DNA of 20,172 nt, from the IMG/VR virus record IMGVR_UViG_3300028364_000188, positions 1 through 20,172 of that record; one strand, 5' to 3'. The DNA comes from a virus. Of the stretch, positions 1 through 14,845 are shown piece after piece. The notes below the pieces were generated by a model, which worked only from the letters and a program-made list of their open reading frames with translations, searched no databases and was not told the origin of the DNA. The position numbers were made by a program, and so were the translations under genes. The stretch's first letter is position 1. Every line of letters starts with the position of its first letter.

Positions 1-1189
1 CCATTTGTAAAAAGTTGTTTATATTTTGCGTTAATTCCAATGCTAAAAAAATGGTTCGGACTAATCTAGTTTTTAAAATTGCGTTGCTCCAACTAATTGA
101 ATTTGTAAATTCCAAATTAATAAAATACTCAATTTCATTATTTGCATCAAAAAAAACAGTCTCTATAAAAATTTTAATTGTTTCGCTGCTTTGCGTTAAA
201 GTAAAAGTTTCTGTTTTAATTGGGAAATCTTCGCCAACTCGAAATATTCTAACAGTGCATTCGGTTGTGGGGTCGGTTAAATAATTTATTCCTTCGAAAG
301 TTATTTGCTGCAAAATTTTATCTAAAAGCAAAGTCCCGTTTAATTTGACTTTTACGCTATCGGTTGCGCTTTTAAAATCAATTATGAATCCCGCATTTGA
401 AGTAGTCGCGTTTTGCAAAATAATAAATTTGCTTTGCGTTTTGCTTCCAAAGTTTTCACCCATACACCAAATGTAGGCGTCTTTATATTCCGTTCTATTT
501 TCGAGCGGGGAAATAATTTGTAAACCGTATTTCAATTTAATTAATTCGACTATTGTGCTAAATGAAATTGCTGGTCTTAATTCATTTGCTTTTAGAACTT
601 TGTTTGACGTCGGCAAATTTGCTGGATTGAAGAATACATTATCTAGTCCTGAACCATCAGCATTGTATTGTATTACTCTATTAGTGGATGCTAGTGGTAC
701 AAAGTATTTTATTGGTATTCCTTCAATGTTATTTGATTGAATACTATATAGTAGATTCTTTGCGGTTGCGGGATTCCAATTAATTACTAGGCTTCCCAGT
801 TCGTTTATAGTGTCGTCTCCTATTTTATCCTTTAAATTTGTCAAATTTGTAGCAAAACTTGCAGTTATAACGGAAGGTTTACCCATTTTATAGACTATTT
901 TTTCTAATTTTAATAGTCCCGTTTGGTTTAAAATGCTATTTACATAAACTTTTGTACGTACTTTTCGCAAATCAGAAGGCTTAATTACGTCCGTATTGCC
1001 AAAATAACCCAATGAATTTAGATTATTAGGCGTTGCGTCAAAGGTAAAGTTCAAAGAATAAGGCGAAAATACTTTGCTAATATCTTGAGTATCTTTAAAA
1101 GTGTACCTCATCGGAATACTTTCATCTTTTATTAGGTCTAATTTGCTGTAATTAAGTCCATCGAGTGAAACGAATACTTCTGTTATCAT
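1..1189 (-). CDS. Virion structural (tail-type) protein, 3' end beyond window
   Basis: The frame is open from the ATG at 1189 to the left edge, giving at least 396 residues without a stop, so the gene is cut by the window. Its start overlaps the methyltransferase stop by four bases (ATGA), so the two are probably translationally coupled. The N-terminus (MITEVFVSLDG, then KDESIPMRYTFKDTQDISKV and SPYSLNFTFDAT) has the look of large virion proteins of Flavobacterium and Cellulophaga phages, whose N-terminal region reads KDE.., ..DI.KVF..FS..FT.PA. The rest is rich in beta-forming, N/T/S-rich sequence with no signal peptide, as in distal-tail or baseplate-hub proteins. The family match is recalled rather than searched, and the exact tail role is inference from position after another large structural protein. 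Confidence 0.75.
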   Translation of the reverse strand, partial: MITEVFVSLDGLNYSKLDLIKDESIPMRYTFKDTQDISKVFSPYSLNFTFDATPNNLNSLGYFGNTDVIKPSDLRKVRTKVYVNSILNQTGLLKLEKIVYKMGKPSVITASFATNLTNLKDKIGDDTINELGSLVINWNPATAKNLLYSIQSNNIEGIPIKYFVPLASTNRVIQYNADGSGLDNVFFNPANLPTSNKVLKANELRPAISFSTIVELIKLKYGLQIISPLENRTEYKDAYIWCMGENFGSKTQSKFIILQNATTSNAGFIIDFKSATDSVKVKLNGTLLLDKILQQITFEGINYLTDPTTECTVRIFRVGEDFPIKTETFTLTQSSETIKIFIETVFFDANNEIEYFINLEFTNSISWSNAILKTRLVRTIFLALELTQNINNFLQM

Positions 1190-14661: not shown

Positions 14662-14690
14662 AAAAAAACCACCAGATCAACGGTGGTTTT
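14662..14690 (-). terminator. Intrinsic terminator of the small RNA
   Basis: AAAACCACC (minus, 14690-14682) pairs perfectly with GGTGGTTTT (14673-14665) around an eight-base loop, followed by a T run on the minus strand (14668-14662). It closes any leftward transcript from the 14752 promoter and also isolates the accessory promoter downstream. Confidence 0.8.
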
Positions 14691-14745
14691 GAAATGCATC
14701 TTTCAATACGAAAGCACCCCGATCGAAGGCGTTATACATTTGCTA
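14662..14745 (-). ncRNA. Candidate small RNA with three-way junction
   Basis: A TATCTTTG promoter box (14759-14752) and a terminator (14690-14662) bracket about 84 bases with no reading frame of note. The transcript folds neatly: P1 AAAUGUAU (14741-14734) with AUGCAUUU (14699-14692, one G-U); P2 CGCC (14731-14728) with GGUG (14718-14715, one G-U) and nine-base loop; P3 CUUUC (14714-14710) with GAAAG (14704-14700) and loop GUAUU. P2, P3 and the P1 3' arm are contiguous with no unpaired base, and only two bases separate P1 from P2. The terminator hairpin follows. It matches no class I know; a hammerhead core is absent. Function unknown, possibly an antisense or protein-binding phage RNA. Confidence 0.55.
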
Positions 14746-14751
14746 TTGAGG

Positions 14752-14759
14752 CAAAGATA
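14752..14759 (-). promoter_or_regulatory. -7 box of small RNA promoter
   Basis: TATCTTTG (minus, 14759-14752) is identical to the late promoter -7 box. No TTG lies at -33, where the upstream terminator stem sits instead. Predicted start is near 14745, leading straight into the structured RNA. Confidence 0.5.
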
Positions 14760-14791: not shown

Positions 14792-14845
14792 CCTAACTTT
14801 AAAAACAAAAAAATTAAACTATGAAAAAACAAAGATAGTGAATTA

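Follow-up and report, generated by a model that had tools for sequence, protein, structure and literature searches.

Does a short stretch of minus-strand DNA between two intrinsic terminators, in an IMG/VR virus record of 20,172 bases (the window), encode an RNA in its own right? The original prediction was that this interval specifies a stand-alone phage small RNA, folded into a compact three-way junction of helices P1, P2 and P3. On reanalysis, the promoter box, the three helices and both terminators all lie on the minus strand where they had been placed. Since related phages contain the promoter-RNA-terminator block at four different sites, and others show a clean absence of it, the interval is very likely to be a phage gene in its own right, encoding a small folded RNA of ~86 nt. 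The best reading of these sequences is that the gene represents a new family of phage small RNAs of the moron type that would act in trans. By sequence comparison, we document its anatomy, its homologues in four settings, the matching empty sites and the alternative RNAs that occupy the same slot. To our knowledge, descriptions of small RNAs from phages of Bacteroidota are few.

Anatomy of the locus

Following an ORF of 79 amino acids (15085–14846, minus strand), the region contains three boxes of the TAHHTTTG type, at 14837–14830, 14759–14752 and 14612–14605. TAHHTTTG is the promoter consensus of Bacteroidota, and the G of the box was mapped to −5 in F. johnsoniae (PMC6847099). The boxes fit a Bacteroidota host, and the nearest isolate relatives of the window by DNA are mainly Flavobacterium phages, among them morran9-1 (a 430-base stretch, 82%) and the snusmum6 phages (methyltransferase). 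Each of the first two boxes is followed by an intrinsic terminator (14794–14765 and 14690–14665, respectively), and a terminator scan of the region gave 4 sites, where 0.4 would be expected from shuffled sequence. The second of these units is the small-RNA block (14759–14662, minus strand), consisting of the promoter −7 box TATCTTTG (14759–14752, from the box scan), the folded RNA and its own terminator; the preceding terminator would insulate the RNA gene. Because the G of the box lies at −5 in the mapped promoters, we place the RNA 5′ end at A14747, 6 nt before P1; in homologues with a shorter spacer, P1 starts at the third RNA nucleotide. From this start to the end of the terminator T-run, the predicted RNA (14747–14662; fold and covariance model R1) measures ~86 nt.

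In the predicted fold, P1 is a helix of 8 bp (14741–14734 with 14699–14692) that encloses two hairpins. P2 (14731–14715) pairs 14731–14726 with 14720–14715 and is capped by the pentaloop CGAUC (14725–14721), inside which lies the palindrome GAUC. P3 (14714–14700; CUUUC-GUAUU-GAAAG) pairs 14714–14710 with 14704–14700, giving 5 bp. Two unpaired A residues separate P1 from P2; P2 abuts P3 directly, and there is no nucleotide between P3 and P1. The dimensions of P1 and P3 and the exact abutment of the arms are thus as originally described, and so is the existence of a P2 hairpin, but this helix has 6 bp, three of them G-U, rather than 4–5.

Directly upstream of the RNA gene (14837–14762, minus strand), a second promoter-to-terminator unit consists of TATCTTTG, a strikingly conserved U-rich UUUCAUAGUUUAAUUUUUUUGUUUUUAAAGUUAGGA and a terminator hairpin (14794–14765) that varies in sequence with its pairing kept in 20 loci; this unit could be another small RNA of ~65 nt. 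It follows a methyltransferase in L032, L038 and L041. On the other side, outside the RNA gene, an inverted repeat GGAACACTTTTGTTCC, which is a possible operator, stands beside the box TATATTTG (14629–14605, minus strand), and this unit comes next in every homologue with downstream sequence. Repeat, box and a leader TTAAGGAAGTGATTTACACGG (together 14629–14555) are kept in many related contigs, and the ORF after the leader differs between phages. The three elements look like one regulated promoter and leader for a hypervariable gene slot.

Could the junction instead be a cis-acting attenuator, an aptamer whose terminator is read through to control the downstream gene, as in transcriptional riboswitches? 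A single base separates P1 from the terminator, the 3′ strand of P2 contains GGUG that could pair with CACC of the terminator, and the same kind of promoter and leader always follows the block. However, the downstream gene has its own promoter, is present in many relatives that do not have the block, and varies between phages, and the junction and loops do not contain the strictly conserved unpaired core typical of ligand-binding RNAs. As in the original prediction, no known riboswitch or ribozyme was recognized: Rfam gave no match in the window at gathering score, and a relaxed search returned weak matches below the gathering scores. We therefore consider an attenuator unlikely.

Homologues, settings and empty sites

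The strongest evidence for a real element is comparative, and we regard it as decisive at the level of sequence: the block is kept as a unit in 12 IMG/VR contigs besides the window, with scores of 92–105 bits against covariance model R1. Using the neighboring 79-aa protein as query, we retrieved 25 phage contigs and compared the DNA that follows this ORF, which contained the RNA block in some, nothing in others and other content in a small number. With pattern scans for terminator and core, the number of contigs with homologues rose to 12, and looser pattern scans of IMG/VR gave no further member. One of the 12, L002/L028 (9,647 bases), is identical to the window at the RNA block; alignment A1 holds nine distinct sequences. 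All members found are from uncultured phage contigs, and the sequences are few and related. A BLAST search of the window and L042 versions against isolate phages matched terminators or chance sequences, and model R1 scored weakly (~32 bits) in the isolates morran9-1, where the match overlaps a coding region, and snusmum6-1. Plasmids gave no match, and a scan of bacterial genomes with one exact pattern gave one chance match, in a Burkholderiales MAG, and no true member at that sensitivity.

The homologues occur in four settings: after the 79-aa ORF (L002, L004, L009, L018 and L026), after a methyltransferase (L041, L032 and L038), after a gene ending in ..YATM (L035 and L040) and after a 94-aa membrane ORF (L042 and L043). 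Near relatives have no block at the corresponding sites. L042 and L075 are 98.1% identical in both flanks and differ solely by one 112-bp insertion in L042, which comprises promoter, RNA and terminator and nothing more. After the 79-aa ORF, L003, L006, L013, L015 and L017 do not contain the block, and the upstream terminator runs straight into the downstream promoter. The block is thus inserted between genes that are adjacent in relatives, as expected of a moron. It also carries its own predicted promoter and terminator, both kept at fixed places in homologues with flanking sequence: a TATCTTTG or TATATTTG box stands at the same position in every homologue with upstream sequence, and the terminator hairpin of L042 has been rebuilt with another loop and other closing bases. 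Since promoter and terminator travel with the RNA between settings, these comparisons support an independent transcription unit, which would be hard to explain as part of a neighboring gene. The movement of the block as a unit and its clean empty sites likewise favor the stand-alone phage small RNA of the original prediction.

It is also conceivable that conservation acts on a DNA site, such as one at the GATC/GTAC palindrome, with transcription being incidental. The aligned sequences do contain palindromic stretches (ATGCAT and GATC/GTAC). Yet a DNA site would not readily account for a promoter and terminator at fixed spacing in every setting or for a terminator hairpin that changes with its pairing kept, and we consider this explanation very unlikely.

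Support for the fold and for RNA over peptide

How strong is the case for the three-way junction itself? In the window, the whole RNA folds with a z-score of −2.70 against shuffles, and the core without the terminator is only modestly beyond shuffles (z = −0.98). The claim that so compact a junction is unlikely by chance was borne out: one case was found among 8050 50-nt windows of the phage sequence when the search called for a P1 of 7 bp or more, a P2 and a P3 of 4 bp or more each and no more than 2 unpaired nucleotides in the junction, and the consensus fold of eight homologous cores was better than those of column-shuffled alignments (z = −3.3, 6/1000). Across the alignment, 98.6% of the cells of P1, 90.7% of those of P2 and 100% of those of P3 are paired. 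P1 is mostly invariant, as is the stem of P3, the loop of which is variable; the greater part of both helices shows no variation at all and is therefore uninformative on pairing.

The covariation check that had been suggested for P1–P3 gave a mixed answer. On the one hand, 8 of the 13 distinct changed pair states keep a standard pair, where a fraction of 0.20 is expected for random single substitutions (P = 0.0013). On the other, the sole double-sided change within P1–P3 is U-G to A-U in P2 of L032, and the covariation score was reached by 32 of 500 shuffles. In L039, P1 is interrupted by a U-C mismatch and P2 by an A-G mismatch, and the RNA folds otherwise; the minimum-energy folds of L040 and L032 also differ, with alternatives better by ~1 and ~3 kcal/mol, respectively. 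No significant excess of variability was seen in loop columns over helix columns (Fisher P = 0.09). Taken together, these comparisons support the three-way junction without proving it: P1, P3 and the terminator probably form, and P2 plausibly does.

Another way to account for the conserved block is that it is a tiny protein gene, in which a nearly leaderless mRNA encodes a peptide of 16–20 amino acids (in the window, MYNAFDRGAFVLKDAFQNHR) and any folding is incidental. The interval had been described as containing no gene, which holds overall, except that a 20-codon ORF starts in P1, without a coding signature. Its ATG lies 8 nt past the predicted 5′ end, or 4 nt past it in several homologues, the frame is open to codon 16 or beyond in seven of the eight distinct cores, and mean pN is 0.12 compared with a pS of 0.21. 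Nonetheless, the selection on amino acids that marks a small protein gene was not found. Variable sites are spread evenly over the codon positions (7, 5 and 6), no third position varies in the conserved codons for Gly, Ala and Asp, codons 5, 6 and 12 change the amino acid, and in L035, L036 and L041 a stop at codon 12 is followed by unchanged DNA. In Flavobacterium, A at −3 favors initiation and only a small minority of leaders measures 10 nt or less (PMC6847099); the start codon in question is buried in P1 and has no A at −3. Because of the even spread over codon positions, the invariant four-fold sites of Gly and Ala and the stops at codon 12, we favor an RNA over a peptide, for which the chances seem slim.

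The slot, the P2 loop and relation to known RNAs

The same slot can hold other RNAs. In L019 (3900–3990, plus strand) and L020 (6330–6420, plus strand), a different small RNA is flanked by the promoter and terminator that also flank the window RNA, with fold z-scores of −3.8 and −3.4; its opening bases, AAUAGAAAUGUA, are similar to the AAUAGCAAAUGUA at the start of the window RNA. In a sister phage, L014, the slot contains a permuted tmRNA gene (840–1056, plus strand) that matches RF04321 at 53.2 bits (cut-off 47) and combines a canonical T arm with a G3-U70 pair in the acceptor. This gene escaped detection by ARAGORN, and a possible tag frame within it ends in ..RMAS, which is not a usual degron. 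As judged from reading frames only, L007, L011, L012 and L021 have DNA methyltransferase-like genes inserted between the 79-aa ORF, which they directly follow, and the small-RNA units. These inserts make the whole stretch an insertion hot spot.

Since permuted tmRNAs of aquatic phages are already known (RF04321; Melnitz phage, PMC9004378) and one occupies the slot in L014, might the window RNA be a reduced relative, a tag-less tRNA-like decoy in which P1 corresponds to tmRNA P2, P2 to the T arm and P3 to the acceptor stem? The order of helices is identical, the P2 loop of the window conforms to the T-loop consensus if taken as the 7 nt UUCGAUC, and tag-less tmRNAs are known, one of which, from phage DS6A, inhibits the host tmRNA (PMC11915505). 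Unlike permuted tmRNAs, however, the window RNA has no tag frame, no D-loop and no consistent T-loop, as the consensus fails in five of the eight distinct cores (CCAGAUC, UUGGUAC, UUCGUAC, AUCGUAC and UACGUAC). Its putative acceptor has 5 bp without G3-U70, there is no discriminator or CCA, and RF04321 does not match in the window. On these grounds a T-loop or tmRNA origin was rejected, and we regard it as extremely unlikely.

What, then, might a phage small RNA of this form do? The P2 loop contains a palindrome in all homologues, GAUC in four of the eight distinct cores and GUAC in the other four, and never GAAC or GUUC, a pattern expected once in 70 times if the two middle columns are re-paired at random, ignoring relatedness. 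All four combinations of GAUC or GUAC with C or T at the first P2 position occur, which implies that the change between GAUC and GUAC either happened more than once or recombined. That the palindrome is kept through a two-base swap suggests, from few sequences, a kissing-loop dimer or a palindromic partner.

We envision that a group of flavobacterial tailed phages carries an autonomous small-RNA gene as a moron, inserted between phage genes and exchanged among phages, probably by recombination in its AT-rich promoter and terminator flanks. From its own promoter to its own terminator, the gene would produce an RNA of ~86 nt, with the compact three-way junction at its very 5′ end, that we infer to be transcribed and to act in trans within the host. 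Its fixed scaffold, in which P1, the stem of P3 and GGUGC are all almost invariant, may stabilize the RNA or be held by a protein, and loops L2 and L3 may make RNA-RNA contacts, L2 via its self-complementary GAUC or GUAC. Because a fixed scaffold is combined with variable loops, we judge this mode of action the most likely, and offer it tentatively. The target is likely to be in the host. For antisense pairing to the phage's own mRNAs, the best duplex was no better than for shuffled RNA. Two contacts within the RNA were rejected: a pseudoknot of the 5′ AAUA with L3, the pairing of which is lost in L032, and kissing of L2 with L3, which reaches at most 3–4 bp by eye and shows no consistent covariation. 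A bolder and rather doubtful proposal is that the slot trades whole RNA genes (the junction RNA, the second RNA and the permuted tmRNA) and that the junction RNA homodimerizes via kissing loops, which remained palindromic as they changed between GAUC and GUAC, as an RNA-based counter-defense or superinfection-immunity device.

The family is defined well enough, by its homologues, its empty sites and the predicted ends of the RNA, for expression and function to be directly testable. If RNA genes are indeed traded in the slot as protein morons are, it would also be a place to seek further phage RNAs that alter host regulation or defense.

Short phage RNAs with their own promoter and terminator have a familiar example in OOP of phage lambda, a ~77-nt RNA that is antisense to cII. 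In contrast to OOP, the window RNA has no ORF of at least 50 amino acids opposite it. Another class of phage RNA, the Racr RNA anti-CRISPRs, mimics CRISPR repeats (PMC10651486). In our analysis, the closest functional precedent would be the EcOnc anti-sRNAs AgvB and AsxR, which are encoded at a moron insertion site in lambdoid prophages of EHEC (PMC4104026). These, too, are short phage RNAs at a moron site, and their several versions have a conserved segment in common and another that varies. EcOnc RNAs are 51–60 nt long and bind Hfq; their variable segment is a linear 5′ end, and they base-pair with identified small RNAs of the host, whereas the variable parts of the window family, which belongs to phages of a different phylum and has no sequence relation that we found to EcOnc RNAs, are the hairpin loops of a three-way junction.
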